Made by a program: the position numbers and the translations under genes. The notes beneath the pieces were generated by a model. The model was not told the origin of the DNA. It saw nothing but the letters and a program-made list of their open reading frames with translations, and made no database searches. From Catellatospora sp. TT07R-123 (GTDB lineage Bacteria; Actinomycetota; Actinomycetes; Mycobacteriales; Micromonosporaceae), in assembly GCF_018327705.1 (NCBI RefSeq), contig NZ_BNEM01000002.1, forward strand, positions 1,674,001-1,738,000: a stretch of DNA of 64,000 nt, read 5' to 3'. Below, piece after piece: positions 13,024 through 58,023 of this stretch (positions within the stretch are counted from its first letter, which is position 1; every line of letters begins with the position of its first letter).

Positions 13024-13088
13024 AAGATCGCCGGTTGCGGTCTAGAAGTCGACCTGGAGGTCGGAAGGTGACCGCAACCAGCGATCTT
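13024..13088. repeat. Dispersed 65-nt hairpin element, copy 1
   Basis: Left arm AAGATCGCCGGTTGCGGTC (13024-13042), 27-base loop, right arm GACCGCAACCAGCGATCTT (13070-13088), one mismatch between arms. The loop itself contains CGACCT/AGGTCG. It lies between divergent genes. Confidence 0.85.
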
Positions 13089-13207
13089 GCCCAGCGCGGC
13101 CGCGCAGGCCGAGGCGCCGTGCTCGCGGCGTTCGGCATCGTGCGAGGTCGGGGCCCCGATCGGCCGACTGGCCCACGTTACGGTCGGCCGCGAATGCCCG
13201 TCGGCGA

Positions 13208-13834
13208 ATGCCAGGCACCATGGACCGCGTGAATGAGACGGTGACAGATACACAGGCAGGTCAGGCACCCACCCTGTTCCTGATGGTAGGCCTTCCCGCG
13301 TCCGGGAAGACCGTGCGAGCACGGAAACTGGCCGCGGAGCGCGGAGCCCTGCGGCTCACCGCTGACGACTGGGCGCTCTCCCTCCTCGGCCAGGAAGACC
13401 GTCACCAAGCCCGGCCCGACGGCAAGCGGTGGCTGCTGGAGGGCCGACTCATCGCACTGGCCGTCGATGCGCTGCGGCTGCGGCTCAGCGTCGTTCTCGA
13501 CTTCGGACTCTGGTCGCGCGATGAGCGCTCCGCCCTGCGTTGGATGGCCGCTTCGGTGGGGGCATCGTGTGAGATCGTGTACCTGGCGGTGGAACGCGAG
13601 GTGCAGTGGAACCGGATTCAGCACCGCTGGAAACACACGCCAGAGCAGACGTTCCCCATGGCCGAGGCGGAGCTCGACCCGTGGCGAGAGCAGTTCGAGG
13701 TCCCCGACGCAGACGAGCTCTCCGGTTCGTTTCTGCCCTCCCCGCCGCCCAGGGATGAGAGCTGGTTCGACTGGGCTCAGCGATTCTGGCCCTCCCTCGC
13801 GCAGAGCCTGAACGGGCGGCTCACCGAGAGATGA
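13208..13834 (+). CDS. P-loop kinase / AAA-type ATPase (zeta-toxin-like fold)
   Basis: The 208-aa protein starts its fold with a beta strand and the Walker A motif GLPASGKT at residues 28-35. LTADDW follows near residue 55, then VVLDFGLWSRDER, the pattern of small P-loop kinases that phosphorylate nucleotides, sugars or antibiotics. A C-terminal Trp-rich helix (DESWFDWAQRFW) is distinctive. It probably acts as a cytoplasmic ATP-dependent kinase; the substrate cannot be inferred. No antitoxin gene is adjacent, which argues against a zeta toxin module. The start may be 13208 or the ATG at 13220. Neither has a strong ribosome binding site. Confidence 0.75.
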   Translation: MPGTMDRVNETVTDTQAGQAPTLFLMVGLPASGKTVRARKLAAERGALRLTADDWALSLLGQEDRHQARPDGKRWLLEGRLIALAVDALRLRLSVVLDFGLWSRDERSALRWMAASVGASCEIVYLAVEREVQWNRIQHRWKHTPEQTFPMAEAELDPWREQFEVPDADELSGSFLPSPPPRDESWFDWAQRFWPSLAQSLNGRLTER

Positions 13835-13901
13835 CGGTCCGGCGTGATGCGTTCCGTGGCCGAACCCCTCGATGCGTCGGCTGATCGTCGACGACATCTT
13901 G

Positions 13902-13966
13902 TAGATCGCTGGTTGCGGTCGAGAAGTCGGCCTGAGGACCTGAAAGCGACCGCAAACAGCGATCTT
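13902..13966. repeat. Dispersed 65-nt hairpin element, copy 2
   Basis: Left arm ends in GATCGCTGGTTGCGGTC (to 13920), a 27-base loop follows, then GACCGCAAACAGCGATCTT (13948-13966). The loop resembles copy 1 (AGAAGTCG near its start). It lies between convergent genes. Confidence 0.85.
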
Positions 13967-13997
13967 GCTGAAGCACCCGCCGCGCCGGGCCGCGCGG

Positions 13998-14033
13998 CGC
14001 TCGCCGGGCCCGTCGCGGCGGGCCCGGCGAGCG
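13998..14033. terminator. Bidirectional terminator hairpin
   Basis: A perfect 15-bp stem, CGCTCGCCGGGCCCG and its complement, has a six-base loop. It lies immediately downstream of the serine protease stop and after the convergent kinase gene. Confidence 0.65.
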
Positions 14034-14040
14034 GACCCGG

Positions 14041-15333
14041 TCAGTGCAGGATGTTGACGTTCAGTTCGCGTTCGGCGGTGCGGATGCCCTGGTACACGAT
14101 CTCGCAGTCGTCCTCGTCGCCGCCGACCAGGATGCCGTAGCCGACGTGGCTGGCGTACATGGGTGCGCCGCTGTCACCGGGTTTGCCGCAGTTCTCGGTG
14201 AGGCCGAGGTTGCGCATGGTCAGCCCGCCCAGGTTCGCGGTCAGCCCGAGTTCCTCGACGTGGCTGCAGTTGCTGACCCGGGTGGCGGCGCCCGTGGTGC
14301 AGATACGCATCCCGACGACGCTCATCTTGTCGGAGGCGATGTGGTACGTCGTGTTCTCCGTGGTCCACGGGCTGAGGGTGACCAGCACCCACGGCTGCGG
14401 GTTCCAGCCGGTGGCCGACGAGTCGTTGATCCGGATGATCGCCATGTCCCCGATGTACGTGTCGAAGATCCAGTGGTGCACCGGTCCGATGTCGGTCGCG
14501 GTGAGCGCGGTGTCCTTGCTGCTCCAGGTGCCGAGGTGCTGGTAGGCGCAGTGCCCGGCCGTGACGACGTACTTGACGCTGTCGACCTTGCTCTGGGCGA
14601 TGAAGCCGGCGGTGCACCACGTCGACGGGTGGTTGATCTTCACGCCGCCACGCAGGGGCTTGTCGCAGTACGGCACGTCGCACGCGAACGTCTTGAACGC
14701 CCCCGACGAGGTGCCCATGACCAGGCCGTCGCCGAGCCGCGCCTGCGCGGTGGTGATCAGGTCCTTCTGCGCGGCGGTGAGGGTGCCGCGCACCGGCACG
14801 TGCAGCATCAGCGCGTTGAGGTCGGTGCGGATGCCCGCGCTCAGCGGCGCCTCCACCCCGGCGTTGGTGCGGATGATCTGCTCGGCCAGCCAGTCGTTGT
14901 CGGCCGAGAGCCTGGCCGCCGACCGCTTGACCGCGACGACGTCGTACCCGTCGGTGAGGCCGACCGCGGCGGCGGCCGCCTTCACCACGCCGCGGACCTG
15001 GTCGTCGACGGAGCCGGTGACCCCGGCCTTGACCCGGTCGCCGTCGCGTACGTCGATCCACACGTTGCCGTAGCGCTCGCCCAGCTCGCGTTGCAGCCGC
15101 TCGTCCAGGTCCGGCGCGACGAGCTGCCACGACATGCGCCTGCGGGCCTCGGCCTCGCTGATGCCGCGCTCCTTGGCGAACCCGGCCGCCTCCTCGGCGA
15201 ACGGGTCCTCCCCGGTGGTGGCCGCGGTCGCGGCCGCGGGCTGGCGGGCGGCCGTCGCGGCGCCGGGCGGCAGCACGGCAATGGCCAGGACCAGCGCACC
15301 GGCGCCGACCGCCAGCCGCTTCCATCGAGCCAT
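14041..15333 (-). CDS. Secreted trypsin-like (S1) serine protease
   Basis: The 430-aa preproprotein has a signal peptide (basic WKR, hydrophobic core, cleavage near AATA at residue 28). A propeptide of about 180 residues follows, including a FAKERGISEAEARRRM segment. The chymotrypsin-like domain comes last. The catalytic triad is visible: His261 in VVTAGHC, Asp296 in GDMAII, Ser388 in GKPGDSGAP. Paired cysteines (219/223, 240/262 and others) fit an extracellular enzyme. The protease is expected to be secreted, fold with the help of its propeptide and digest external protein. It is the last gene before a shared terminator; the secreted chitinase lies upstream in the same direction. Confidence 0.9.
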   Translation of the reverse strand: MARWKRLAVGAGALVLAIAVLPPGAATAARQPAAATAATTGEDPFAEEAAGFAKERGISEAEARRRMSWQLVAPDLDERLQRELGERYGNVWIDVRDGDRVKAGVTGSVDDQVRGVVKAAAAAVGLTDGYDVVAVKRSAARLSADNDWLAEQIIRTNAGVEAPLSAGIRTDLNALMLHVPVRGTLTAAQKDLITTAQARLGDGLVMGTSSGAFKTFACDVPYCDKPLRGGVKINHPSTWCTAGFIAQSKVDSVKYVVTAGHCAYQHLGTWSSKDTALTATDIGPVHHWIFDTYIGDMAIIRINDSSATGWNPQPWVLVTLSPWTTENTTYHIASDKMSVVGMRICTTGAATRVSNCSHVEELGLTANLGGLTMRNLGLTENCGKPGDSGAPMYASHVGYGILVGGDEDDCEIVYQGIRTAERELNVNILH

Positions 15334-15510
15334 CGTGATCTCCTCGTATCGGTGGGCGAAGTGCCCTCACGATGCGCGGATCCGGCGGCGGCACGCCACG
15401 CCACGTCGGCCTTGCGACTGTCGGGGATGGGCCTGCCGCTGCCCGAGCACCAGGCCCGGGGCGAGTTGGGGCGAGGTGGGACGGGGCGGGCCTGGGCCGG
15501 GCGGGACGGC

Positions 15511-15545
15511 GAGGGGCCGCCACCGGCGTCCGGTGGCGGCCCCTC
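15511..15545 (-). terminator. Terminator hairpin after the chitinase
   Basis: A perfect 16-bp stem, GAGGGGCCGCCACCGG with its complement, closes over a three-base loop 20 bases beyond the chitinase stop. Confidence 0.75.
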
Positions 15546-15564
15546 GGGTGTTGCGCGGCTGAGG

Positions 15565-17478
15565 TCAGCCGGTGAAGCCCGCCGTGATGGCGGTGAAGGC
15601 CCAGTCGGACTGGGCGATGCCCGAGCACGACTCCTGCAGGCCGCCGCCCGCGCAGCCACGGTCGCGGTTGACCGACCAGAAGGCCAGGCGCGCGATGTGG
15701 TTGGTGTTGGCCCAGTTGCGGATGCTGGTCCAGTGGGCGGTGGTGGTGATCTCCGACTGGTCGGAGTAGCCGTTCATGCCGGAGATGCCGACGTGGGCGT
15801 ACGCCTGGGCGTCGGTCCAGCCGAAGGCGGTCTTCAGCGCGTTCTTCAGGCCGGTCGCGGCGCTGATGGTGCTGGCGGACATGTCCGCGCCACCGCCGAA
15901 GTCGAACGGCATGATCGTGAACACGTCGATGTTGGCGCCGGTGGCGGCCGCCTGGGTGATCAGGCGGGTGCCGTAGTACGTCGGGCCGGTGGTCGCGGTG
16001 CCGAAGGTGAGGATCGTCTTGATGCCGGGGTTGTTCTGCTTGACGATCTTCAGGGCGCCGAGGATCCGGTCCTGCACGGCCTCGTTCTCGAACTCGTCCG
16101 TGTTCTCGATGTCGACGTCGATGTACTTGAGGTTGTAGGCGTTGATGACCTGCTGGTAGGCACCGGCCAGGGCCGAGGCCGAGGAGCAGTTCGGGCCGAG
16201 CTTGTTGCCCTGCCAGCCGCCGAAGGAGATCTCGACGTCACCGCCGTTGGCGCGGATGGTGTTGATGGTGGACTGGTCCACGCCGCCGGTCAGCGGACGG
16301 GTGCTGTCCCACATCGGCACGCAGCCGCCGCCGGAGAGCATGAACGCCATCGTGAACTGCTTGACGCCGGTCGCGCTCATGACGGTGGCGATGTTGGGCG
16401 GGCTGCCCCAGCCGTTGTAGTAGTACGGCGCGGCCATGGCGGTGCCGGTCGGGCAGCCGGTGGTGGTGCCGCCGGCCGAGGCCGACTTCGCCGACTCGCC
16501 CGTGCCGTTGTAGGCGGCCACGGTGTAGGTGTGGCTGCCACAGGCGGCCAGGCCGCTGATCGTCGCCGAGGTGCCGGTGACGGTCGCCTTGACCGTGGTG
16601 CCCTCGTACACGCGGTAGCCGGTCACGGTGCCGGTGGAGGCGTTCCAGGCCACCGAGATGCTGGACGCGGTCGAGCCGGTGACGTGGAAGTTGCCGGGCA
16701 CGCTCGGCACACCGCTGGTGCAGCCGGTGGTGGTCGCCGAGGCGGCGCCGGACTTCGCCGACTCACCCGAGCCGTTGTACGCCGCCACGGTGTAGCTGTG
16801 GCTGGTGCACGTGCCCAGGCTGCTGATCGTGGCCGAGGTGCCGGTCACGGTCGCGACGACGGTGCTGCCCTCGTACACCCGGTAGCCCGTGACCGTGCCG
16901 CTCGCGGCGGCCCAGGACAGGGCGATCGAGGTGTTGGTGATCGTGCCGACCGCCGGGGTGCCGGGGACGCCGGGCACGCCCGTGCCGCCGGGGCCGTCGA
17001 CCGAGACGTCGTCGACGTTGTACACCGGCTGGCCGTACCAGCCGTTGACGTACACCTCGAGCGAGGTCTGCGAGGCGCCGGTGGTGTAGCTGGTCGACAG
17101 CTGCACCCAGTTGGACGCCGCGTTCGGGTTCCAGGTCGAGGTGCCGCCGGTGATGCCCAGGTAGACGTAGCCGCCACCGCCGCGGACCCACGCGGTCGCG
17201 GTGTAGGTGGTGCTGGGCTGCACCGACACGGTCTGCTTGCACTGGGCGTAGTCGGACGCGCTGGGCGCGCCCTGCAACGCCTTGGTGCCGGCGTGGACCG
17301 GGGTGGACACGACGGAGCCGAGGCCCGCGCTACAGGTCCACGGCGACAGGGAGCCGGACTCGAAGCCCGGGTTGCTGAGCAGGTTCGCCGCCGAGGCGGG
17401 GCTGGCGGTCATGACGACCGCGGCGGCGACGGTCACCGCGGCGGAAGCCACTGCGGCGAGCTTGTGCCGGAAACGCAT
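15565..17478 (-). CDS. Secreted modular chitinase, GH18
   Basis: ATG 17478 is chosen for the AAGGAAGG site six bases upstream. The 637-aa protein has a signal peptide ending in ASPASA (residue 30). A carbohydrate-binding beta-sandwich of the CBM4/9/16 type follows (about 31-162, LLSNPGFESG at its start). Two fibronectin type III domains (about 170-252 and 258-341) are nearly alike. A GH18 catalytic barrel completes it (about 347-637). The active-site strand reads KYIDVDIE, with Glu458 as the acid/base. It hydrolyses chitin outside the cell. The two FnIII modules share long identical stretches, suggesting internal duplication. A LacI-like half-palindrome lies about 45 bases upstream. Confidence 0.92.
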   Translation of the reverse strand: MRFRHKLAAVASAAVTVAAAVVMTASPASAANLLSNPGFESGSLSPWTCSAGLGSVVSTPVHAGTKALQGAPSASDYAQCKQTVSVQPSTTYTATAWVRGGGGYVYLGITGGTSTWNPNAASNWVQLSTSYTTGASQTSLEVYVNGWYGQPVYNVDDVSVDGPGGTGVPGVPGTPAVGTITNTSIALSWAAASGTVTGYRVYEGSTVVATVTGTSATISSLGTCTSHSYTVAAYNGSGESAKSGAASATTTGCTSGVPSVPGNFHVTGSTASSISVAWNASTGTVTGYRVYEGTTVKATVTGTSATISGLAACGSHTYTVAAYNGTGESAKSASAGGTTTGCPTGTAMAAPYYYNGWGSPPNIATVMSATGVKQFTMAFMLSGGGCVPMWDSTRPLTGGVDQSTINTIRANGGDVEISFGGWQGNKLGPNCSSASALAGAYQQVINAYNLKYIDVDIENTDEFENEAVQDRILGALKIVKQNNPGIKTILTFGTATTGPTYYGTRLITQAAATGANIDVFTIMPFDFGGGADMSASTISAATGLKNALKTAFGWTDAQAYAHVGISGMNGYSDQSEITTTAHWTSIRNWANTNHIARLAFWSVNRDRGCAGGGLQESCSGIAQSDWAFTAITAGFTG

Positions 17479-17521
17479 GTCGACCTTCCTTTGGGGGGAA
17501 TGAAACATCGACTAACGGGAC

Positions 17522-17533
17522 AGAAGCGTTTCC
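17522..17533. promoter_or_regulatory. LacI-type operator candidate upstream of chitinase
   Basis: AGAAGCGTTTCC is an imperfect 12-bp palindrome (10 of 12 positions pair) of the type bound by LacI-family sugar regulators. It is 44 bases upstream of the chitinase ATG. Confidence 0.4.
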
Positions 17534-17640
17534 GTGAACATACAAGAAAGACAGTTAACAGTAAAGAAGCTTGCCAATACTGAAGGCAGGCGATCGCCAA
17601 GGTTGGCGGTCTTCCGCCACACCGGACATTCGGGTCCGCG

Positions 17641-18165
17641 TCAGGCGGGGCGTTCGGCGTCGGCGGAGCCGGTCTGCGCGAGCTCGGCGACGATGTCGAG
17701 GTGGCCCGCGTGGCGGGCGTACTCCTGCACCAGGTGCAGCATGATCCGCTCCAGCGTCGCGGGCTCGGCGCCGTCCCAGCGCGGGCCCGGCTGCCCCACC
17801 TCGGCCAGGTCGGCGGCGAGCACGACCTCGCGGGTGTGCTCGCCCTGGGCGCGCAGCGCGGCGACGAGGTCCTCCAGCGACTCGTCCGGGTCGACGTGCC
17901 AGCGCTCGTCGCGCCAGTCGCCCCACGGCTCGTCGAACGTACGCCCCTGGAAGCCCCACTCGATCCAGCGCAACTCGACGAAGCGCAGGTGCTTGAGCAT
18001 CTCGACCGGGGTCCAGCCGGAGGCCAGGCGGCTGCGCCGCTGCTCCTCGGGTGCCAGGTGGGTCACCTTGCCGATCACGATGGCGCGGAAGTCGTCGAGG
18101 TAGGCGGCGAGCACCTCGTTGCGGGAGGCGATCGGGTCGGTGGGGCTGAGCGGCGAATTCGTCAC
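17641..18165 (-). CDS. DinB-superfamily protein (DUF664-like)
   Basis: The 174-aa protein is a predicted four-helix bundle. The metal-binding histidines expected for the DinB/mycothiol-dependent enzyme superfamily are present: one in WTPVEMLKHLRFVELRW, and two in the C-terminal ARHAGHLD. Members use a divalent metal and often mycothiol as thiol cofactor in detoxification reactions, acting in the cytoplasm; the specific reaction here is unknown. It lies upstream of the chitinase on the same strand but is separated by about 160 bases with promoter-like sequence. It is probably a separate unit. Confidence 0.8.
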   Translation of the reverse strand: MTNSPLSPTDPIASRNEVLAAYLDDFRAIVIGKVTHLAPEEQRRSRLASGWTPVEMLKHLRFVELRWIEWGFQGRTFDEPWGDWRDERWHVDPDESLEDLVAALRAQGEHTREVVLAADLAEVGQPGPRWDGAEPATLERIMLHLVQEYARHAGHLDIVAELAQTGSADAERPA

Positions 18166-18210
18166 CCGCCGAGTATCGCCGACCGCCCATACCCCGATTC
18201 CCGCGCCAGC

Positions 18211-18227
18211 AGCTACTAAAAGTAGCT
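18211..18227. promoter_or_regulatory. Short palindrome upstream of the DUF11 gene
   Basis: AGCTACT and AGTAGCT flank an AAA centre about 75 bases upstream of the DUF11 protein start and just upstream of the divergent DinB gene. It could be an operator; there is no direct evidence. Confidence 0.35.
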
Positions 18228-18303
18228 CTGCGATTACCTAACGTGACTCCAGGCCGTTGGAGATGAGGGTGATTGGACCCAGATCAACCAGCTAGGAGGC
18301 ACG

Positions 18304-20487: not shown

Positions 20488-20501
20488 CCGGTACGGGACA
20501 G

Positions 20502-45536: not shown

Positions 45537-45545
45537 GTCCGGGTG

Positions 45546-49200: not shown

Positions 49201-50694
49201 TCAGCTCCCCGGATCGATGACGGCGTACTGGCCCATCATGCCGGAGTCCTCGTGATACAGCAGGTGGCAGTGGAACATGTAGACGCCGGGCCCGGGATGG
49301 CGCGGGAACTGCATGATCAGCTCCACCGGCCGGCCGGGCGGCAGGAACACCGTGTCCTTCCAGCCGCGCAGCTGCGGCGGTGGGGCCGCCCCGGCGACGG
49401 TCAGCACCTGGAACTGCACACCGTGCACGTGGAAGTTGTGCGGGATGCCGTCGTCGTTGACGACCCGCCAGATCTCGGTGCTGCCCGCGATCGGGCGCGC
49501 GTCGACGCGGTCCATGTCCATCGGCAGCCCGTTGATCGCGTCGTCGTCCAGGTGGAACTCGCGGGTCCGGGCGGCCCGGTCCCGGGTCAGCAGAGGCAGC
49601 GGCGCGAGCACCGCGGGCAGGTCCGGGCCGGGCCGCAGCACCGGCGCGGGCCGCAGTTGCAGGATGTCGAGGGTGTCGTCGCCGCCGACGAACCGATCGC
49701 CGAGCCGGCCCGCGCCCAGCGGGTGCGGGAAGCTGCGCAGCACCTCGGTCCGGCCGGGGTCGAGGTCCACCACGATCTCGGCCCGCTCCCCCGGCGACAG
49801 CATGATCCGGCGCAGCCGCACCGGGGCCTCCAGCAGACCGCCGTCGGTGCCGACCAGCGCGAACCGGCGCCCGTCGGTGAGCCCGAAGTCGTAGGTGCGC
49901 GCGTTCGACGCGTTCAGCAGCCGCAGCCGCACCCGCCGGGTCACCACCGGCAGGAACGGGCCGGTCACCCCGTTGACCGCGACGGTGTCGCCGAGCAGGC
50001 CGATCCCCGCCAGGGGCGCGTTGGCGGCGTCGAGCCGCCCGTCGGCGGTGAACCGCTTGTCCTGCACGATCACGGGGATGTCGTCGACGCCGTACTCGTG
50101 CGGCAGCGCGGGCGAGCCGGTCGCCGGGTCGTCGACGATGATCATCCCGGCGAGGCCTCGGTAGACCTGCTGCGCGGTCGCGCCGTGCGGATGCGGATGG
50201 TACCAGAGGGTCGCGGCGGGCTGGTCAACCCGCCAGGACGCCGACCACGAGCTGCCCGGGGCGATGAGCTGGTGCGGGCCGCCGTCTGCGGCGGCGGGCA
50301 CGCGCATGCCGTGCCAGTGCACGCTGGTCGGTTCGGGCAGATCATCGTGTACGTCGACGAGCACCTGCTCGCCCCGGGCCATCCGCAGGGTCGGGCCGAG
50401 GTAGCTGCCGTCGAAGCCCTCGGTGCGCACCGGACCCGCGCCGAAGTCGTGCTCGCCGGCCTGGGCGCGCAGGTCGTACACGCGGCGGCCGTGGCGGTCG
50501 CGGTGCGACGGTGCCAGCGGCGGGATCGGCAGCGGCCGGTCGAAGCCGGCTCCCGCCGTCGAGATCATCGCTGGGGCCCACACCCACCGGTCGACCGCGA
50601 ACCCGCTGCCCGCGAGCAGCGTCAGCACGGCGGCAAGGTACGCCAGCCGCCGCCGTACCGCCACCCTGCCGCTTCCTCGCCCGCTCGCCCTCAC
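49201..50694 (-). CDS. Exported multicopper oxidase (CueO-like)
   Basis: The 497-aa protein has a basic start and a membrane or signal helix at about residues 17-34, then three cupredoxin domains. All copper motifs are present. HWHG is at 126-129 and HPHPHG near 166-171 (type 2/3 sites). HNFHVHG lies in the third domain, and HCHLLYHEDSGMM at the end carries the type 1 and 3 ligands. The axial Met of the type 1 site is kept. It oxidises copper(I) or phenols using O2 outside the membrane and could protect against copper. Length and spacing are normal for CueO-like enzymes. A hairpin element (50784-50848) lies upstream. Confidence 0.93.
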   Translation of the reverse strand: MRASGRGSGRVAVRRRLAYLAAVLTLLAGSGFAVDRWVWAPAMISTAGAGFDRPLPIPPLAPSHRDRHGRRVYDLRAQAGEHDFGAGPVRTEGFDGSYLGPTLRMARGEQVLVDVHDDLPEPTSVHWHGMRVPAAADGGPHQLIAPGSSWSASWRVDQPAATLWYHPHPHGATAQQVYRGLAGMIIVDDPATGSPALPHEYGVDDIPVIVQDKRFTADGRLDAANAPLAGIGLLGDTVAVNGVTGPFLPVVTRRVRLRLLNASNARTYDFGLTDGRRFALVGTDGGLLEAPVRLRRIMLSPGERAEIVVDLDPGRTEVLRSFPHPLGAGRLGDRFVGGDDTLDILQLRPAPVLRPGPDLPAVLAPLPLLTRDRAARTREFHLDDDAINGLPMDMDRVDARPIAGSTEIWRVVNDDGIPHNFHVHGVQFQVLTVAGAAPPPQLRGWKDTVFLPPGRPVELIMQFPRHPGPGVYMFHCHLLYHEDSGMMGQYAVIDPGS

Positions 50695-50783
50695 CCGGGG
50701 ACTAACGGCGGCGCCGCCACCACGGCGCGCACCTCACCCGGCCGGGCGAGGACGGGCGGGCGGGCCGCGGCGGCGGCGGCGGC

Positions 50784-50848
50784 AAGATCGCTGTTTCCGG
50801 TCGTGCCGCTCACTCAGCACCAATGATCTGACCGCAAACGCCGATCTT
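50784..50848. repeat. Dispersed 65-nt hairpin element, copy 3
   Basis: Left arm AAGATCGCTGTTTCCGGTC (50784-50802), 27-base loop, right arm GACCGCAAACGCCGATCTT (50830-50848), a few arm mismatches. It lies between two genes of the same direction. Confidence 0.8.
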
Positions 50849-50864
50849 CGCCGCGTCAGCGGCG

Positions 50865-51287
50865 TCAGGGGGTGGGTGGCGGGGTGGTGGGGAGGGTGCG
50901 GGGGCGGCCGAGCAGGCGCTCCATCAGGTGCGGGTCGCCGGGCCAGGCGGCCAGCAGCACGTCGCGGGGCACCTGGCGGCCGGCGTAGCGCAGCGCCAGG
51001 GCGACCACGATGATGTCGTCGAGCGGGCCGATGACCGGCAGGAACTCCGGGATCAGGTCGATCGGGCTGGCGACCCAGATCCCGGCGGCGATGATCGCGA
51101 TCTTGGCGCGGCGGGGCACGCGCGGGTCCTTGCGCAGGCGGCGCACGGTGGTGACGCAGTCGGGCACGAACGCCGCGAGGTCGCGCAGGATGCCGGGCGG
51201 CAGCAGGCGGGCCGCGGCGATGAGCAGCGCCCACGACAGCACCAGCAGTGCGAACCCGGTGCCGAGCCAGATCAGCCAGTCGCGCAC
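50865..51287 (-). CDS. DUF1232 (YkvA-type) membrane protein
   Basis: The 140-aa protein has an N-terminal membrane helix (about residues 5-27). Then comes the DUF1232 core: DCVTTVRRLRKDPRVPRRAK, then a hydrophobic helix and SPIDLIPEFLPVIGPLDDIIVV, the hallmark of the family (YkvA in Bacillus). The Pro-rich tail (RTLPTTPPPTP) is cytoplasmic. The role of DUF1232 proteins is not established; they are membrane proteins often found near transporters or stress genes. It is monocistronic, next to the divergent MMPL exporter gene about 150 bases away. Confidence 0.9.
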   Translation of the reverse strand: MRDWLIWLGTGFALLVLSWALLIAAARLLPPGILRDLAAFVPDCVTTVRRLRKDPRVPRRAKIAIIAAGIWVASPIDLIPEFLPVIGPLDDIIVVALALRYAGRQVPRDVLLAAWPGDPHLMERLLGRPRTLPTTPPPTP

Positions 51288-51439: not shown

Positions 51440-53638
51440 GTGTCCGAATCGAAGGCCCGCCCAGGGTCGCTGCTGCGGATCGGGCGGTTCTGCGCCAGGC
51501 ACGCCGGTCTGGTCGTCGTCGCATGGATCGTCGCCGTCGTGGCCCTGATGGCAGCCGACCGCGCCGCGGGCGGCGAGTTCGCCGACGACTACAACCTGCC
51601 CGGCACCTCCGCCCAGCAGGGCGCCGACCTGCTCGCGGCCCACCAGCCCGCCACCGGCGGCTTCACCAGCCGGATCGTGTTCACCGCCGCAGCCGGGTCC
51701 ACCGTGGCCGCCGCCGGGGACGCGCTGGCCGCGACGGTCTCCCGCCTCGGCGCGCTGCCGAACGTGCGCGCCGTCGCCGATCCGCTGCGGCCCGGCACCG
51801 TCTCCCCCGACGGGCGGACCGCCCTGGCCGCCGTCACCTTCGCCGGCAACCCCGCGGGCTACGGCCGCCCGTACCTGGACCAGGTCGACGCCGCCGTAGC
51901 CCCGGCCCGCGCCGCCGGGCTCACCGTCGAATACGGCGGGCAGCTGGGCACCGCCGCCCGGCCCAAGGCCAACGACCTGCGCTCCGAACTCATCGGCGTG
52001 GCCGTCGCGCTCGTGGTGCTGCTGCTCGGCTTCGGCAGCGTCCTGGCCGCGGGCATCCCGCTGCTGTCGGCGCTGCTCGGCGTCGCCGCCGGGACCGGGG
52101 TGCTCGGCCTGGCCGCCGCGGCGGTCACGCTCGGCTCGGTGTCGCCGACCCTCGGGGTGATGATGGGCCTCGGCGTCGGCATCGACTACGCCCTGCTGCT
52201 GGCCACCCGATACCGCCGGTTCGTCGCCGACGGCATGGCGCCGGTCGACGCGGCCGCGGCGGCTGTCGCGCGCAGCGGCCGGGCGGTGGTGGTCGCGGCG
52301 GTCACGGTCGTGGTCGCCCTGCTCGGCCTGTACGGCTCGGGCCTTCAGTTCGTCGGCCGCCTCGGCCTGGCCGGCGGCATCGCCGTGGCCGTCGCCGCAG
52401 TCGCCGCCCTGACCCTCACCCCCGCGCTGCTGGGCCTGGCCGGGCGGCGCATCGACCGCTGGCGGGTGCGCCCGCCGGTCAGCGAGCCCACCGGCACCGC
52501 CGACTCGTGGCAGCGCTACGCCACCCTGGTCGGCCGCCGCCCGTGGCTGTTCCTGCTCGGCGGCCTGCTCGTGCTCGGCGTGCTGGCCCTGCCCGCCCTG
52601 TCGCTGCGCCTGGGCCAGGTCGACTCCCGTGCCTACCCGACCAGCTACACCGACCGCCGCGCCTTCGACGCGGTCACCGACGCGTTCGGGGCCGGGGCCA
52701 ACGCGCCGCTCACCGTCGTGGTCGAACTTCCCGCGACCGCCACGGACCGCGACCTGCTGGCCGCCCGGCTGCGCACCGCCCTGGCCGAACTGCCCGAGGT
52801 GCGGGCCGTCGGCCCGTTCGCGCCCAGCCCCGACGGCGCGCTGCTGGTCGCGCAGCTCACCCCGCGGACCGGGCCGCAGGACGAGGCCACCGGCGAGCTG
52901 ATGGACCGTCTCATCGACCGCACGCTGCCCGGCATGCTGGCCGGGTCCGGCGCGCACGGCTACGTGACCGGGGTGACCGCGTCGCAGTTGCAGTTCCGCG
53001 ACCTGCTCGCCGAGCGGCTGCCGCTCATCGTGGCCGCCGTCGTGGCGGCGGCGTTCCTGCTGCTGCTGGCCGTGTTCCGCGGGCTGCTCGTGGCGGCCAA
53101 GGCGGCGGTGCTGAACCTGCTGTCCATCGCCGCGTCGTACGGGGTGCTGGTCGCGGTGTTCCAGTGGGGCTGGGGGTCGGCCGCGCTCGGGCTCGCCGAC
53201 GCGGTCCCGATCCAGTCCTACGTGCCGACGATGATGTTCGCGATCGTCTTCGGACTGTCCATGGACTACGAGATCTTCCTGCTGTCGCGCATCCGCGAGG
53301 CGTGGCTGGCCACCGGCGACAACCGGCACAGCGTCGCGGCCGGACTGTCCGCCACCGGCCGGGTCATCACCTGCGCCGCACTGATCATGACCAGCGTCTT
53401 CGCCGCGTTCCTGCTGTCGACCAACGTGGTGGTCAAGATGATCGCGCTCGGCCTGACCGCCAGCGTGATCGTCGACGCCACCGTGGTCCGCCTGATCCTC
53501 GTCCCCGCCTCGATGTACGTCTTCGGCCGCGCCAACTGGTGGCTGCCCCGCTGGCTGGACCGTGTCCTGCCCCACCTCGATCCCGAGGCGCCCGAACCGG
53601 CCGTGCCCGCCGCCGTCGCGGTCCCGGTGCACGCGTAG
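51440..53638 (+). CDS. MMPL/RND-family exporter
   Basis: GTG 51440 is preferred; TACTGT at 51429-51434 could be its -10 box, giving a leaderless transcript. The 732-aa protein has the actinomycete MMPL layout. A first helix (residues about 24-42) precedes a large extracellular domain. Helices 2-6 include the GLGVGIDYALLLATRYR proton-relay segment. A second periplasmic domain and another six helices follow, with GLSMDYEIFLLSRIREAW near the end. These proteins export lipids, siderophores or antibiotics using the proton gradient. Both transmembrane motifs are intact, so it is likely functional. Substrate unknown. A terminator shared with the next gene follows. Confidence 0.92.
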   Translation: MSESKARPGSLLRIGRFCARHAGLVVVAWIVAVVALMAADRAAGGEFADDYNLPGTSAQQGADLLAAHQPATGGFTSRIVFTAAAGSTVAAAGDALAATVSRLGALPNVRAVADPLRPGTVSPDGRTALAAVTFAGNPAGYGRPYLDQVDAAVAPARAAGLTVEYGGQLGTAARPKANDLRSELIGVAVALVVLLLGFGSVLAAGIPLLSALLGVAAGTGVLGLAAAAVTLGSVSPTLGVMMGLGVGIDYALLLATRYRRFVADGMAPVDAAAAAVARSGRAVVVAAVTVVVALLGLYGSGLQFVGRLGLAGGIAVAVAAVAALTLTPALLGLAGRRIDRWRVRPPVSEPTGTADSWQRYATLVGRRPWLFLLGGLLVLGVLALPALSLRLGQVDSRAYPTSYTDRRAFDAVTDAFGAGANAPLTVVVELPATATDRDLLAARLRTALAELPEVRAVGPFAPSPDGALLVAQLTPRTGPQDEATGELMDRLIDRTLPGMLAGSGAHGYVTGVTASQLQFRDLLAERLPLIVAAVVAAAFLLLLAVFRGLLVAAKAAVLNLLSIAASYGVLVAVFQWGWGSAALGLADAVPIQSYVPTMMFAIVFGLSMDYEIFLLSRIREAWLATGDNRHSVAAGLSATGRVITCAALIMTSVFAAFLLSTNVVVKMIALGLTASVIVDATVVRLILVPASMYVFGRANWWLPRWLDRVLPHLDPEAPEPAVPAAVAVPVHA

Positions 53639-53653
53639 GGCCTGAGCGCGCGA

Positions 53654-53688
53654 AACGGGTGGCCGGAGTCGTGCTCCGGCCACCCGTT
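53654..53688. terminator. Bidirectional terminator hairpin
   Basis: A perfect 15-bp stem (AACGGGTGGCCGGAG and complement) over TCGTG lies between the convergent exporter and hydrolase genes. Confidence 0.9.
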
Positions 53689-53705
53689 GCCGATCAGGGC
53701 CCTGA

Positions 53706-54599
53706 TCAGGCGACGGCGAGCGCCTTGCGGGCGTTCGCGTCGATCGCGTCGAGGACCCGCGGGCGCAGGCTCTGCGGCAGGTCGTGCCCCATCGTGTCGA
53801 GCACGAGCAGTTCCGAGCCCGGGATGGCGTTGTGCGTCGCCCGGCCGCCGCTGATGTTGATCAGCGAGTCCTCGCCGCCGTGCACCACCAGGACGGGGAT
53901 CTCGCGCTCGGCGAACTCGCCGAGGGCGGCGGTGCGGTTGGGCGCCGCGGCGATGGCGCCGAACTGGCGCTTGGTGCCCGCCGGGTAGAACATCCGGTCG
54001 TAGGCGGCGGTCGCCCCGGCGAGCCGGGCCTCGCGCTCCTCGGACTCCAGCGTGCGGGAGCCGATGATCCGCATGACGTTGGCGATGTGCGCGATCGCCG
54101 CCTCGCGCTCGGCGGGCGTCTCGGCGAGCACGGCCGCGGCCGCCTCCAGCGTCGGCAGCCCGATGAACGGCGCCCCGGTGGTGCTCATGATCGAGCACAG
54201 GGTGCGCACCCGCTCGGGGTGGTGGATGGCGATGGTCTGCGCGATCATCCCGCCCATCGAGGCGCCCACGATGTGCGCGCGGTCGATGCCGAGGTGGTCC
54301 AGCAGGCCGACCGTGTCAGCGGCCATGTCGGTGAGCTGGTACACGGCGTTGAGCGTCGCGTCGGTCCCGGCGGCGTCCGCCGATTCGATCTTCTCCGACA
54401 GGCCGCTGTCGCGGTTGTCGAAGCGGATGACGCGGTAGCCCCGTCCGGTGAGGTCGTCCACGAAGTCCTGCGGCCAGGCGATGAGCTGCGAGCCCAGGCC
54501 CATGATCAGCAGGATCGGTTCACCGGTCTCGGGACCCTCGTCCCGGAACCAGATCTGAATGTTGTTGCAGGTCGCATATGCTCCGGGTTCGCCAGGCAC
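53706..54599 (-). CDS. Alpha/beta hydrolase
   Basis: The 297-aa protein has the alpha/beta hydrolase order. The oxyanion strand is PILLIMGLGSQLIAW, and VIRFDNRDSGLSEK follows near residue 58. The nucleophile elbow GASMGGMI (Ser at about residue 112) comes next. VLVVHGGEDSLI near 235 supplies the acid, and DTMGHDLPQSL the catalytic His. This matches esterases and lactonases of the haloalkane dehalogenase/epoxide hydrolase branch. It is cytoplasmic, substrate unknown. It converges on the MMPL exporter and diverges from the PfkB gene. The start at 54599 precedes the domain directly. Confidence 0.9.
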   Translation of the reverse strand: MPGEPGAYATCNNIQIWFRDEGPETGEPILLIMGLGSQLIAWPQDFVDDLTGRGYRVIRFDNRDSGLSEKIESADAAGTDATLNAVYQLTDMAADTVGLLDHLGIDRAHIVGASMGGMIAQTIAIHHPERVRTLCSIMSTTGAPFIGLPTLEAAAAVLAETPAEREAAIAHIANVMRIIGSRTLESEEREARLAGATAAYDRMFYPAGTKRQFGAIAAAPNRTAALGEFAEREIPVLVVHGGEDSLINISGGRATHNAIPGSELLVLDTMGHDLPQSLRPRVLDAIDANARKALAVA

Positions 54600-54812
54600 G
54601 CTGATCCCCTTTCGGACGGTGGAAGCAGGTATGCCGTCACCTTAGTTGTCAAACCCCTCTCTACCTGTGCATATGTCTCGGGGCTGGCGGCGTGTTGAGT
54701 GGAGTCGCACTCCGTCGACGCCCGCGCGGGGACAGCAGCGTCGCGGCCGCGACGGTAGCCTGGGGCCGCCCACCGCTCAGGGCTGACTCGATCCCTGCCC
54801 GGAAGGCGACCC

Positions 54813-55730
54813 ATGCGCGATCTCGACGTCCTGGTCCTCGGCGGTGTCGGCATCGACACGATCGTGCGGGTGCCGACCCTGTCCGTGCCGCCGGGCGACT
54901 TCCTGCCGGTGGCGCCGATCCACGACTACGTCGCCCACTCCGGCAACGGCGTCGCGCTCGGGTTCCACGCGCTGGGGCTGCGCACCCTGCTCGCCGACTT
55001 CCTCGGCGACGACCCGATGGGCGAGCTCGTGCTGCGCCGGTACGCCGCGGTCGGCCTCGACTTCACCCATCTGCCCGCACCCGGCGGCACCCCGCGCGCG
55101 GTCAACCTGGTCGACGCGCAGGGCCGCCGCTTCTCCTTCTTCGACGGCCGCCACCCGCACGGCCTGGCCCTGCCGCCGGAGTTCTACCTGCCGCTGCTGG
55201 AACGGACCCGGCACGTCCACATCGCCGCCACGCACGCGGTCGGCGCGTTCGCCGAGGCCCGGCGCCTGGGCGTGACGGCCTCGGCCGACATCCACGCGTG
55301 GGACGGCGAGAACCCGTGGGCGCTGCCCTTCCTGCGCGACGCCGACCTGGTGTTCTTCAGCGCCCAGGCCGCCCCGGACCGGGTCGACGAGATCATGCGG
55401 CGCGTCCTGGAACTGGGCCGGGCCCGGGTGGTCGTGGCCACCGAGGGCGCCGCCGGCTCCCGCGTGCTGACCCGCGAGCAGCCGCAGGTGAGGCGCTTCC
55501 CAGTGGCGGCGCCCCAGCGGCCGGTCGTCGACAGCAACGGCGCGGGCGACGCGTTCAGCACCGCGTTCATGAGCCGCTGGCTGGCCGGGGACCCGGTCGA
55601 GGAGTGCATGCGGGCCGGGGCGGTGTCGGGCGCGTACGCGTGCGGGGCGGCCGGAACCCACGAGGACCTGATCACGGCAGCGGCACTGGACACCGCGATC
55701 GCCGGGACCAGGGCCGGTGCTGCTGCATAG
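54813..55730 (+). CDS. PfkB-family sugar or nucleoside kinase
   Basis: The 305-aa protein has PfkB motif 1 near residues 40-50 (AHSGNGVALGFHALG) and motif 2 DSNGAGDAF near residue 246, where the second Asp is the catalytic base. GGAAGG precedes the ATG. The enzyme phosphorylates a sugar or nucleoside with ATP in the cytoplasm; the substrate is not evident from sequence. It is followed nine bases later by an aldo/keto reductase gene in the same direction, so both probably belong to one carbohydrate or polyol pathway. The protein lacks the N-terminal extension seen in ribokinases. Confidence 0.9.
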   Translation: MRDLDVLVLGGVGIDTIVRVPTLSVPPGDFLPVAPIHDYVAHSGNGVALGFHALGLRTLLADFLGDDPMGELVLRRYAAVGLDFTHLPAPGGTPRAVNLVDAQGRRFSFFDGRHPHGLALPPEFYLPLLERTRHVHIAATHAVGAFAEARRLGVTASADIHAWDGENPWALPFLRDADLVFFSAQAAPDRVDEIMRRVLELGRARVVVATEGAAGSRVLTREQPQVRRFPVAAPQRPVVDSNGAGDAFSTAFMSRWLAGDPVEECMRAGAVSGAYACGAAGTHEDLITAAALDTAIAGTRAGAAA

Positions 55731-55739
55731 AGTGAGGTA

Positions 55740-56597
55740 ATGACCGTTGCCGGAGGTAGCCTCGCCCTCGCCGACGACCTCGTCCTCAGCCGGATGGGAT
55801 ACGGCGCCATGCAGCTCGCGGGCCCGGGGGTATGGGGGCCGCCGCGCGATCGCGCCGAGGCCGCGGCGGTGCTGCGCGAAGTGGTCGCGCAGGGCGTCAC
55901 CCACCTCGACACCAGCGACTACTACGGGCCGTACACGGTGAACGAGCTGATCCACAAGGTGCTGCACCCGTATCCGCCGCAGCTGCGGATCGTGACCAAG
56001 GTCGGGGCGCGGCGCGGCCCGGACAAGTCGTGGCCGCCCGCGCTGTCGCGCGACGACCTGGTCGGCGCGGTGCACGACAACCTGCGCCGCCTGGGCGTGG
56101 ACGCCCTGGACGTGGTGAACCTGCGCGTCGGCGGGGTGGAGCGGCCCACGCCCGGCTCGATCGCCGAGCCGTTCTCGGTGCTGGCCGAGCTGCGCGAGCA
56201 GGGGCTGATCCGGCACCTGGGCGTGAGCGGGGTATCGGACGAGCAGCTCACCGAGGCGCAGTCGATCGCGCCGGTGGTGTGCGTGCAGAACCTGTACAAC
56301 ATCGTGCGCCGCGATGACGACGCGCTGGTCGACCGGTGCGCGCGGGAGGGCTTGGCCTACACGCCGTTCTTCCCGCTGGGCGGGTTCAGCCCGTTGCAGT
56401 CGCAGGAGCTCGACGAGATCGCCGCCGGGCTGGGCGCCACGGCACGCCAGGTCGCGCTGGCCTGGCTGCTCCAGCGGTCACCGACGATGCTGCTGATCCC
56501 GGGCACGTCCTCGCTGAAGCACCTGCGCGAGAACCTCGCCGCCGCCGACCTGGCGCTGCCCGCCGACGCGGTCGCGGCCCTGGACGCGCTGACGTGA
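55740..56597 (+). CDS. Aldo/keto reductase
   Basis: The 285-aa protein has the AKR (beta/alpha)8 barrel motifs. LSRMGYGAMQLAGPGVWGPP lies at the N-terminus, with LDTSDYYGPYTVNELI holding catalytic Asp and Tyr. KVGARRGP holds the Lys, and AREGLAYTPFFPLGGFSP precedes the cofactor-binding C-terminus with IPGTSSLKHLRENL. It reduces carbonyls with NADPH in the cytoplasm. It follows the PfkB kinase by nine bases and should be cotranscribed. A terminator hairpin follows immediately after its stop. Confidence 0.9.
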   Translation: MTVAGGSLALADDLVLSRMGYGAMQLAGPGVWGPPRDRAEAAAVLREVVAQGVTHLDTSDYYGPYTVNELIHKVLHPYPPQLRIVTKVGARRGPDKSWPPALSRDDLVGAVHDNLRRLGVDALDVVNLRVGGVERPTPGSIAEPFSVLAELREQGLIRHLGVSGVSDEQLTEAQSIAPVVCVQNLYNIVRRDDDALVDRCAREGLAYTPFFPLGGFSPLQSQELDEIAAGLGATARQVALAWLLQRSPTMLLIPGTSSLKHLRENLAAADLALPADAVAALDALT

Positions 56598-56599
56598 CG

Positions 56600-56633
56600 G
56601 CGGATGCTCCCGGCGGGCGCCGGAAGCATCCGC
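56600..56633. terminator. Bidirectional terminator hairpin
   Basis: GCGGATGCTCCCGG pairs with CCGGAAGCATCCGC (one mismatch) over six bases, between the convergent reductase and secreted-protein genes. Confidence 0.75.
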
Positions 56634-56638
56634 GCGCA

Positions 56639-57028
56639 TCAGACGATGACCCAGAGCTTGACGTACGCCGTGTTGTCGAACCGGCACTGGTAGGTGGTGA
56701 TGGTGCCGTTGGCGACCAGCGCGTTGCCCGCGTTGCCACAGGCGGTGCCGTAGACGTCGTTGTTGTAGTACTGGCTGTGGTAGGTCCAGGTGCCGCTCAC
56801 CGTGTAAAGGTCCCAGTAGCCGGTGCCGGAGTTGAGGTTGCAGCGGTAGTCGGCGATGGTGTGCGCCGCCAGCAGCTGGGCGCCCTTGTCCTGGCACGGG
56901 TTGTGGAAGAAGATGTCGTCGTCGTATCCACCACTGTGGAACGTCCAACCGGTCGCGGCGGCGGCAGGAGCGGCACCGAGCAGCAACATCGCGGCGACGG
57001 CCGCGAACACGAGGCTAATCTTACGCAT
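56639..57028 (-). CDS. Small secreted protein
   Basis: The ATG at 57028 (MRKIS) is chosen because it gives a compact signal peptide: basic start, hydrophobic core, AAPAAAAT site near residue 25. The mature part of about 100 residues is rich in Tyr, Asn, Gly and Trp (GWTFHSGGYDDDIFF, TWTYHSQYYNNDVYG) with four cysteines, likely two disulfides. It resembles a small secreted beta-sandwich but has no assignable family. Just upstream lies a palindrome, TCTATGCATAGA (57038-57049), which may be an operator or part of the promoter. Confidence 0.65.
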   Translation of the reverse strand: MRKISLVFAAVAAMLLLGAAPAAAATGWTFHSGGYDDDIFFHNPCQDKGAQLLAAHTIADYRCNLNSGTGYWDLYTVSGTWTYHSQYYNNDVYGTACGNAGNALVANGTITTYQCRFDNTAYVKLWVIV

Positions 57029-57037
57029 AGATTGCAG

Positions 57038-57049
57038 TCTATGCATAGA
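57038..57049. promoter_or_regulatory. Perfect 12-bp palindrome upstream of secreted protein
   Basis: TCTATGCATAGA is self-complementary and ends 10 bases before the start codon of the secreted protein; GCATAGA/TCTATGC (57025-57044) forms a second inverted pair across the start. It is a likely operator. Confidence 0.5.
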
Positions 57050-57108
57050 TCACACCTCGACGAAAGCTCGGAGCCAGCTGATCGCGGCCCGTGCGCGGGA
57101 GCCTCGGC

Positions 57109-57864
57109 TCAGGCGGCGCCAAGGGCGGTCTCCAGCGCCAGACGTACGACCGCCGCCTGGTCGGCGTCGAGCAGGTGCGCCACGCGTTGGGCCGCGACCG
57201 CGTAGAGCTCGATCGCCGCCCTCAGCATCTCGGCGCCGCCGCCGGGAGTGATCCCCAGCGCCGTGTCCTGAGCCTCCGACCAGCGGGGGCCTTCGGCCGC
57301 GGCGACCAGGTCCCACAGGCGGTTCTCGGTGTCGTGGAGGATCCGGTGGTGCACGGCCAGGACCGTGGCCAGGCGGACCGCGAGCAGGCTGCGCATCACG
57401 GCGGCGGCGCGGGGGCTGCCGCCGGTGGACTGGCCGACGAGGCGGTGCACCTCCTCGGCGTACCCGGTGATCTGCTCGGCCACCCACTCGTCGGGGGCGC
57501 CGCCCAGCAGCGGCCAGTCCCAGGCGCGGGCTTCGGCCTGCAACCGGGCCGCCTCGCCGGTCGGGTCGGCCAGGATCAGCGCGCCGCGCCAGGCCGGGAC
57601 CGCGCCGCCCGCGCCGGCCGGATGCGCGAACCCGGCCCGGACCTGCTCGACCGTACGCCACGACTGCGACACCTGCCACCCGTCGCAGACCGCCAACCGG
57701 TATTCGGGCCCGTCGCCGAGCGCCACCAGGTCGATGTCGGACGTGGGCCGGGCGTCGCCCCGCGCCACGCTGCCGACCAGCACCACCGCCCGTGCCCCGT
57801 TCGCGGTCAGCTCGCGGGCGAACCGATCCGCGACCGCCCTCGCCCCTTGCCGATCGAACACCAC
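57109..57864 (-). CDS. MNT-type nucleotidyltransferase-fold protein
   Basis: The 251-aa protein begins with the pol beta-type NTase motif VLVGSVARGDARPTSDIDLV (about residues 28-47), whose GS and two Asp residues bind Mg-ATP. The remaining helical part includes HRLVGQSTGGSPRAA and AVRLATVLAVHHRIL, somewhat like the HEPN-adjacent region of larger fused forms. MNT-like proteins may adenylylate a partner toxin, and fused forms inactivate aminoglycosides. No HEPN toxin gene is adjacent, so a single-gene resistance or unknown role is equally likely. It diverges from the TetM-like gene. Confidence 0.8.
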   Translation of the reverse strand: MVFDRQGARAVADRFARELTANGARAVVLVGSVARGDARPTSDIDLVALGDGPEYRLAVCDGWQVSQSWRTVEQVRAGFAHPAGAGGAVPAWRGALILADPTGEAARLQAEARAWDWPLLGGAPDEWVAEQITGYAEEVHRLVGQSTGGSPRAAAVMRSLLAVRLATVLAVHHRILHDTENRLWDLVAAAEGPRWSEAQDTALGITPGGGAEMLRAAIELYAVAAQRVAHLLDADQAAVVRLALETALGAA

Positions 57865-57923
57865 GCCGCGGACCCTACCGAGCCGCGTGCCCGCCCAGCG
57901 ACCCGGTTCCGCACGCTGGTCTT

Positions 57924-57942
57924 GACCGGAAGCGGCGATCTT
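57924..57942. repeat. Lone half of the hairpin element
   Basis: GACCGGAAGCGGCGATCTT matches the right arm of the 65-nt elements but has no left arm nearby. It lies 16 bases from copy 4 and may be the scar of a second copy. Confidence 0.55.
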
Positions 57943-57958
57943 CGAGGCAGCGGCCGCG

Positions 57959-58023
57959 GTGATCGCTGTCTGCGGTCACTCGGCGCGCCCCAGGCCCACC
58001 TTCTGACCGCAAGCAGCGATCAC
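57959..58023. repeat. Dispersed 65-nt hairpin element, copy 4
   Basis: Left arm GTGATCGCTGTCTGCGGTC (57959-57977), 27-base loop, right arm GACCGCAAGCAGCGATCAC (58005-58023), two mismatched positions. It lies between divergent genes. Confidence 0.8.

Follow-up and report, generated by a model that had tools for sequence, protein, structure and literature searches.

A fixed-length 65-bp palindrome dispersed through Catellatospora genomes: a candidate REPIN-like repeat biased towards gene 3' ends

The window analysed here, a 64-kb stretch of the Catellatospora sp. TT07R-123 genome, contains four copies of a 65-bp palindrome and one single arm. The gene context of the four copies was taken from open reading frames and Pfam matches, and the RNA fold of each copy was predicted, as listed below.

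13024..13088, no strand: palindrome copy 1, in a divergent gap; fold -40.6 kcal/mol, z -7.1; left neighbour an ORF at 12232-12978 (-) with uncertain start codon and no Pfam match, its 5' end 45 nt away; right neighbour an AAA_33 kinase-like gene at 13208-13834 (+), 119 nt away
13902..13966, no strand: palindrome copy 2, in a convergent gap between the AAA_33 kinase-like gene (+) and a trypsin-like gene (-); fold -35.4, z -5.8
50784..50848, no strand: palindrome copy 3, in a tandem gap, 16 nt past the stop of a DUF1232 gene (50865-51287, -) and upstream of a multicopper oxidase gene (49201-50694, -); fold -21.6, z -3.3
57924..57942, minus strand: half copy consisting of a single arm, 16 nt left of copy 4
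57959..58023, no strand: palindrome copy 4, in a divergent gap; fold -40.5, z -7.4; left neighbour a nucleotidyltransferase gene (57109-57864, -), right neighbour an EF-G-like gene (58210-60168, +)

The positions, the 19-nt arms and the 27-nt interval that an earlier note on this DNA had given for the four copies were all borne out, and the half copy it had placed at 57924 is real, with a 17-nt arm core (57924-57940, minus strand) carrying 1 mismatch. Copy 3 has the weakest fold of the four, and in copy 4 the pairing extends outward past the 65 bp. No Rfam family matched the 64-kb window at the gathering score. Model R1 recovered all four copies, but it was built partly from those same copies; because R1 counts stop at 150 scored candidates, the copy numbers given below were taken from pattern counts.

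Each 19-nt arm reads WWGATCGCnGnnT, followed by a lineage-specific block and GTC, and the two arms are inverted, leaving WWGATCGC at both ends in most copies. The earlier note described the interval as a 27-nt loop. Its fixed length was confirmed, but it is not a simple unpaired loop: the interval is the degenerate inner part of the palindrome, so the whole 65 bp can fold into a hairpin with as many as 31 bp, and the best copies form a single 31-bp hairpin with a 3-nt loop.

A search of the own genome (G000, 9.17 Mb), with up to 3 mismatches over 28 specified bases and a spacing of exactly 27 nt, returned 159 copies, while the reversed-pattern control returned none; a type-free pattern raised the count to 206. 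The genome thus holds some two hundred copies, far beyond chance, and the palindrome was present in all 11 Catellatospora genomes searched, with 37-275 copies each. Outside Catellatospora, low-copy relatives of the palindrome were found in two genera; the model matches in G027 were rejected as family members, the palindrome being absent at the two loci inspected. When gaps of 0-120 nt were allowed in samples picked mostly around known copies, the gap was 27 nt in 59 of 65 arm pairs with at most 2 mismatches in G000 (1.243 Mb; 41 of 44 at most 1) and in 71 of 73 in the congener G051 (0.773 Mb; 58 of 59 at most 1), with a gap of 26 once per sample and no pairs in the reversed controls. In orthologous gaps, where 63-67 nt were allowed, 28 of 29 copies measured 65 nt and one 64, indicating that the length stays put while the interval sequence drifts. 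The 65-mer is the unit, since half arms with at most 1 mismatch lay mostly inside whole copies (131 of 144 in G000, 148 of 150 in G051). Few other copies or freely varying loop lengths, which the earlier note had named as signs of chance among GC-rich palindromes, were not what we found, and the reversed control together with the near-constant gap makes the probability of a chance origin of the four copies practically nil. No paper on this repeat was found in the open-access literature among the matches listed, and PMC12306157 and PMC13155455 gave no word match to Micromonosporaceae.

The arm block differs between lineages. The TGCGGTC type accounted for 159 copies in G000 and none in G051 or G071, while the CGTGTC type accounted for 6, 265 and 260 copies, respectively. 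In five genomes in which the block varies between copies, positions 14-17 showed an identical 4-mer in both arms in 25 of the 51 listed copies (of 418 counted), against 10.1 expected, a value reached in 0 of 5000 shuffles. Covariation over 34 copies was 0.212 versus 0.126, and pairs with a change on each side numbered 16 versus 14.3 after shuffling (reached by 93 of 500 shuffles). All these shuffles leave the relatedness among copies in place. In the inner stem within G051, no covariation beyond the shared consensus was found (z 0.2). These results showed that the arm co-variation is real, but not overwhelming.

According to the earlier note, the copies occur in all three kinds of gap, divergent, convergent and tandem, and terminator function was discounted on that ground. 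The description holds for the window's four copies (two in divergent gaps, one in a convergent and one in a tandem gap), but not for the family. In two genomes convergent gaps were enriched 2.4-2.6 times (36 of 80 versus 19% expected; 31 of 73 versus 16%) and divergent gaps were depleted (10 of 80 versus 31%; 5 of 73 versus 25%), so the exclusion of a terminator-like role at 3' ends by gene context was not upheld. In tandem gaps the upstream stop was nearer to the copy in 24 of 34 and 31 of 37 cases. Other strong hairpins in copy-free gaps showed the same gap-class bias (G000: convergent 69/115, tandem 99/377, divergent 13/194; G051: convergent 29/56, tandem 59/257, divergent 4/108), and among shuffled gaps a strong hairpin was found in 1 of 308. 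By position and predicted folding, the copies are stable hairpins at gene 3' ends, as intrinsic terminators require. A U-tract after the copies was not found, with at least 3 T in the following 8 nt in 3% and 6% of cases versus 15% at random intergenic sites, and for this reason they are not classical intrinsic terminators. In tandem copies read along the sense strand, G-U exceeded A-C mismatches weakly (85:59 in G000, 74:65 in G051); the classes without a defined sense strand scattered equally (convergent 86:87 and 59:40; divergent 34:14 and 5:8), so that we did not accept G-U polarity as proof of transcription.

The occupancy of orthologous gaps is uneven. One convergent gap holds a copy in all 9 genomes compared, and two gaps hold a copy in G000 only (eight and six relatives compared). 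At C1:4048909, the copies of G100, G109, G087 and G129 sit at the opposite end of the gene. At convergent loci, the empty gaps of relatives contain another strong hairpin in 17 of 41 cases and no replacement hairpin in 24 of 41; at one locus none of 8 has one. Empty and filled gaps differ by more than the element, and the divergence of the empty ones precludes an exact footprint. Such uneven occupancy suggests that the palindrome may be mobile.

The earlier note proposed a check for a nearby transposase such as TnpA-REP, and no TnpA-REP was detected. The Y1/RAYT transposase family PF01797 had no match at E <= 0.001 in five of the 11 genomes, namely the own genome and four of its 10 congeners (G016, G051, G100 and G133). 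The other six congeners had 1-3 matches each, those of full length and without a break lying in frames of 150-157 aa, and as a control the search gave matches in 5 of 14 named genomes. Six genomes carry more than 100 copies, and four of these had no Y1 match (G000 206, G051 275, G016 186 and G100 151 copies). As described in PMC8049555, E. coli genomes without RAYT retain at least 69 REPINs, and the absence of a RAYT match here is therefore compatible with past copying.

According to a report on Pseudomonas fluorescens SBW25 (PMC3116915), REPINs there have inverted conserved ends and a less conserved spacer in which length and the capacity to form a hairpin are what counts, with compensatory changes common. 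The Catellatospora repeat resembles them in its inverted conserved ends, its less conserved spacer of set length with hairpin capacity, its compensatory changes, its extragenic position and its hundreds of copies. It differs in being near-palindromic over the whole 65 bp and, whereas the SBW25 REP ends are tied to a RAYT gene, in lacking a Y1/RAYT match in five of 11 genomes, its own included (PMC3116915). REPs, as described in PMC3733652, are 20-40 bp long, carry a GTAG/CGTC tag on one of their ends, and are high in copy number, intergenic and found mainly in convergent and unidirectional gaps; the copy number, intergenic position and gap preference are shared here, but the unit is 65 bp long and symmetric, with GATCGC ends. 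Streptomyces clavuligerus HS-U-lack ends, described in PMC8269248 as structured and U-less and compared there with I-shaped terminators, are likewise stable stem-loops without a U-tract after genes in a high-GC actinobacterium; they are individual mapped 3' ends, whereas the Catellatospora hairpins are predicted ones, formed by copies of one repeat.

Two further systems with gene-end hairpins were considered and set aside. An integron attC site seems not to fit, as the ends GATCGC do not resemble the attC core. Neisseria DNA uptake sequences are a lineage-specific motif, and their inverted pairs form hairpins at 3' ends, features which the palindrome shares; uptake sequences are, however, mostly single motifs and also occur within genes, and single half arms are rare here (13 of 144 in G000 and 2 of 150 in G051 outside whole copies).

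Taken together, we consider it reasonably probable that the palindrome is a REPIN-like non-autonomous repeat, copied via its arms and kept at gene 3' ends as a hairpin. A trans-acting enzyme, to which no known Y1/RAYT enzyme was matched, would recognise the arms and would give rise to rare new copies at new sites, accompanied by local multiplication. Copies would survive where the hairpin is harmless or useful, that is at the 3' ends of genes and most of all in convergent gaps, and are probably retained there as U-less hairpins. Once transcribed, as we infer, the hairpin would most likely block 3' exonucleases or stop transcription both ways without a U-tract. Of the earlier reading, the dispersed, fixed-length, REP/MITE-like family stands, to which co-varying arms can be added; the context-based exclusion of a terminator role and a nearby TnpA-REP found no support. 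A more specific version, which we offer only tentatively, is a REPIN-like population run by an enzyme other than Y1/RAYT, in which arm recognition drifts between species as "arm dialects", with hundreds of dispersed copies changing their block on both sides together, and in which the host lets either these copies or other palindromes serve as hairpins at 3' ends. REPINs are understood as wards of RAYT transposases, and high-copy populations occur here in genomes without a Y1 match; whether something else copies them, or whether they persist after enzyme loss through usefulness at gene ends, thus becomes testable, and the lineage-specific arm blocks offer a way to find the protein that recognises them.

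In a DNA-level site, each arm would be a binding place for gyrase or a dimeric chromosome protein that acts on supercoiling between convergent genes, and the hairpin would not need to form. Such a site would account for inverted sites held at fixed spacing while the interval drifts, for the weak strand polarity, and for an arm block that has changed in step across the genome, as would be expected had a binding protein changed specificity. The spacing of 17 pairs of neighbouring copies in G051 is 94-115, 157 or 159 nt, with 94, 104-106 and 115 making up most cases; these values fall near multiples of 10.5 (R 0.72), and the linkers appear for the most part unrelated. The phasing was non-significant once like spacings were collapsed (p about 0.09), and G000 did not show it (13 pairs, R 0.29). 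Nor would a double-stranded site be expected to show arm co-variation at variable positions, and we regard this alternative as unlikely.

Resident U-less terminators under selection, spread by descent and local duplication without a mobile element, would share the 3'-end bias of other hairpins and would suit the gap filled in all nine genomes. In a list of arm and interval differences that leaves out pairs differing at more than 10 interval positions, and whose G000-G109 pair at C1:4048909 is not the same gap, G000 and G016 at C2:3310449 differ at 2 of 34 arm and 9 of 27 interval positions, as such terminators might, but G000 and G133 at C1:2742436 differ at 11 of 34 and 3 of 27. Terminators would not need a shared sequence, yet about two hundred copies have GATCGC and the lineage-specific block, and the two gaps filled only in G000 also argue against this explanation, which appears improbable.

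The copies are short, non-coding and numerous with inverted ends, as a classical MITE derived from a DDE transposon, with terminal inverted repeats of 19 bp, would be; but the interval is palindromic too, no direct target duplication was seen by eye at the ends (with empty gaps too diverged for base-exact comparison), and Pfam revealed no transposase in 20 scanned of the 23 genes between copies 0.4-3.6 kb apart (13 from the own genome, of which three short ones were left out, and 10 from G051; two of the 20 had no Pfam match), which makes a MITE very improbable.

Element-bounded gene cassettes were rejected as a general rule: filled and empty gaps elsewhere have the same flanking genes, and the AAA_33 orthologues in G087, G125 and G100 have no copy in the 6.3 kb of sequence compared. 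In the window, three copy-holding stretches are missing in a close relative.

12042..14021, no strand: stretch with copies 1 and 2 and two genes; no BLAST match in the orthologous stretches of G016 and G133
49246..50900, no strand: stretch with the multicopper oxidase gene and copy 3; unmatched by BLAST in the orthologous stretch of G016, which has only 48 nt between the flanks
57033..58063, no strand: stretch with the nucleotidyltransferase gene, the half copy and copy 4; unmatched by BLAST in the orthologous stretch of G133, which has only 88 nt between the flanks

At the first of these stretches, G016 and G133 match 10377-12041 and then continue with the trypsin gene after 87 and 148 nt, respectively.

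The four 65-nt copies that the earlier note had placed in the window, together with the half copy at 57924, were confirmed:

13024-13088, copy
13902-13966, copy
50784-50848, copy
57959-58023, copy

The whole-genome search that it had proposed, allowing at most 3 mismatches over 28 specified bases, found 159 copies with 27-nt spacing in the own genome and none of the reversed pattern. When gaps of 0-120 nt were allowed, the gap was 27 nt in 59 of 65 arm pairs with at most 2 mismatches in a 1.243-Mb sample from the own genome, and in 71 of 73 in a 0.773-Mb sample from the congener G051; both samples were mostly picked around known copies and thus inform on shape and context but not on density. 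Few half arms lay outside a whole copy (13/144 in the own genome, 2/150 in G051).

To characterize the structure, six copies were folded, and the best two, both from congeners, formed a stem of 31 bp closed by a 3-nt loop, one with a single mismatch and the other with none; the 27-nt interval is thus an inner stem, which in the own genome has drifted. Across 34 copies (17 own, 17 congener), the 31-pair structure exceeded all 500 shuffles in standard pairs (83.0% vs 77.3), cells altered on both sides (95 vs 53.0) and covariation (0.212 vs 0.126), while the number of pairs altered on both sides was 16 vs 14.3, reached by 93/500. Inside a single genome, pairing came mainly from the shared consensus plus a modest excess: z 4.1 in the own genome (74 copies, near-duplicates removed from 80) and z 2.5 in G051 (40 from 74), with inner-stem z of 1.8 and 0.2. 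In five block-variable congeners, positions 14-17 were paired in 170 of 204 cells vs 138.7 for shuffled arms, and the same 4-mer stood in both arms of 25/51 copies vs 10.1 (each 0/5000); this test covered 51 of 418 counted copies. The shuffles used in these tests leave the copies' shared descent in.

REPINs are copied by the enzyme RAYT. A search for the Y1/RAYT family PF01797 came up empty in five of the 11 genus genomes (the own one, G016, G051, G100 and G133), and copy number did not track its presence across the 11. The element behaves like a REPIN population, yet it is not classed as a RAYT-dependent REPIN, since a search for RAYT gave no match in the own genome. An excerpt of PMC3116915 describes REPINs as a pair of conserved ends in inverted orientation around a spacer critical in length and hairpin capacity, with compensatory changes; the element is like them in its inverted conserved ends, length-fixed hairpin spacer and compensatory changes. 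E. coli genomes without RAYT retain REPINs (PMC8049555, in excerpt), so the Catellatospora copies may have outlived a copying enzyme since lost. No publication on this repeat was found in searches of open-access text.

Gene context was assigned with a purpose-written codon-usage caller, which missed the window's AAA_33 gene, so individual assignments may be wrong. The 80 own-genome copies lay in 36 convergent, 34 tandem and 10 divergent gaps and never in genes; expectation by number of gaps of at least 65 nt was 19%, 50% and 31% (convergent excess p 1.5e-7, divergent deficit p 2.3e-4). The 74 copies in G051 were 31 convergent, 37 tandem, 5 divergent (three in a single cluster) and 1 within a gene call, against 16%, 59% and 25% (p 8.5e-8 and 7.2e-5). 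In tandem gaps the upstream stop was closer to the copy in 24/34 and 31/37. A preference for convergent and unidirectional gaps is likewise reported for REPs in the extract of PMC3733652. Other strong hairpins, found in 1/308 shuffled gaps, had the same bias in copy-free convergent, tandem and divergent gaps (69/115, 99/377 and 13/194 in the own genome; 29/56, 59/257 and 4/108 in G051). T-runs 3' of copies were less frequent than background. The predicted hairpin at gene ends resembles the U-less transcript ends of S. clavuligerus, termed HS-U-lack in the excerpt of PMC8269248. The copies would most likely serve as transcribed U-less hairpins at gene ends; the leading alternative is that they act at the DNA level, as a site between convergent genes.

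For 14 own-genome copies, the flanking gene segment was searched in eight congeners. One of the 14 gave no match, and 80 of 93 matches were retrieved, with only the gap side scored. A copy was present in 29/80 orthologous gaps; 28 of these copies are 65 nt long and one is 64 nt.

Table. Relatives with a copy in the orthologous gap (own-genome positions).
C2:3310449; 8/8
C1:3356581; 6/8
C1:2742436; 4/8
C1:2634889; 3/6
C2:3809428; 2/8
C1:3166677; 2/2
C1:3610804; 1/5
C1:4048909; 1/8
C2:3428273; 1/3
C1:4531570; 1/8 (weak)
C2:834251; 0/2
C1:1901281; 0/8
C1:1171226; 0/6

The empty gaps are too diverged for an exact insertion footprint to be visible. At convergent loci, 17 of 41 relatives' gaps without the element carried a different hairpin, matched by at most 1 of 100 shuffles; such replacements filled 6/6 empty gaps at C2:3809428, with three unrelated palindromes in different species, and 0/8 at C1:1901281. 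Orthologous copies showed pairs changed on both sides with pairing preserved (three, G100 vs G071, C1:3356581), beside broken ones. For the window's own loci, a scan of 20 retrieved stretches found no copy at orthologous places and one weak match, in G087, at a different place. The AAA_33 (zeta-toxin-like) kinase gene at window 13208-13834 is matched at 91-92% identity in G087, G125 and G100, whereas the closest congeners, G016 and G133, lack a match at E <= 1e-15, a patchy distribution perhaps reflecting horizontal transfer.

The second arm block varied with lineage.

Table. Copies with the second block unconstrained (reversed controls 0 in all 11 genus genomes), and types from two separate patterns.
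Genome; copies; TGCGGTC type; CGTGTC type
Own (G000); 206; 159; 6
G051; 275; 0; 265
G129; 99; 9; 61
G118; 37; 16; 7
G109; 242; 86; 106
G087; 59; 11; 32
G125; 52; 10; 39
G071; 271; 0; 260
G016; 186; 87; 3
G133; 67; 36; 2
G100; 151; 41; 98

An exact-pattern scan of a species genome collection, possibly lacking the own genome, gave 17 stretches, all in four Catellatospora species, and the TGCGG-type pattern was positive in 9/300 family genomes (44 genera), all Catellatospora. With outer ends only and at most 1 mismatch, 63/250 family genomes were positive: 27-217 places in each of 11 genus members and 1-4 in the other 52, where the matches listed resemble ordinary coding sequence. Search model R1, built partly from the window's copies, gave ten matches in G055 and five in G041, all exactly 65 nt long; three inspected in each were palindromes that share the GATCGC ends and have a different second block. 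True relatives of the element are present in these two other genera.

Within the own genome, none of 41 places with at most 1 mismatch fell in C1:1-1171000 or C2:1-834000 (2.0 Mb; borders set after inspection), where C1:248779 has 2 mismatches; with dnaA at C1:4572347, these regions may be far from the origin.

The genus has further long palindromes at gene 3' ends, at loci L140 (G133), L141 (G109), L152-L157 (G071, G087, G129, G118, G100 and G109), L161, L162 and L163, with cores such as GAAGGGCACCTTC, GACGYTGGCCTATCT, CTCTTAAAGACTTGCGGCC and GTTTCGGGGAAAGTGC. Hairpins resembling the first also cluster together in the own-genome sample and in that of G051, and three of these palindromes substitute for one another between species at C2:3809428.

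Neighbouring copies in G051 (L193, L194, L197, L201-L203, L205, L209-L211, L220, L221) were spaced 94, 104-106, 108, 110, 115, 157 and 159 nt apart, near multiples of 10.5, with apparently mostly unrelated linkers; this spacing was not found in the own genome. The two adjacent copies at L197 are identical, which points to local duplication.
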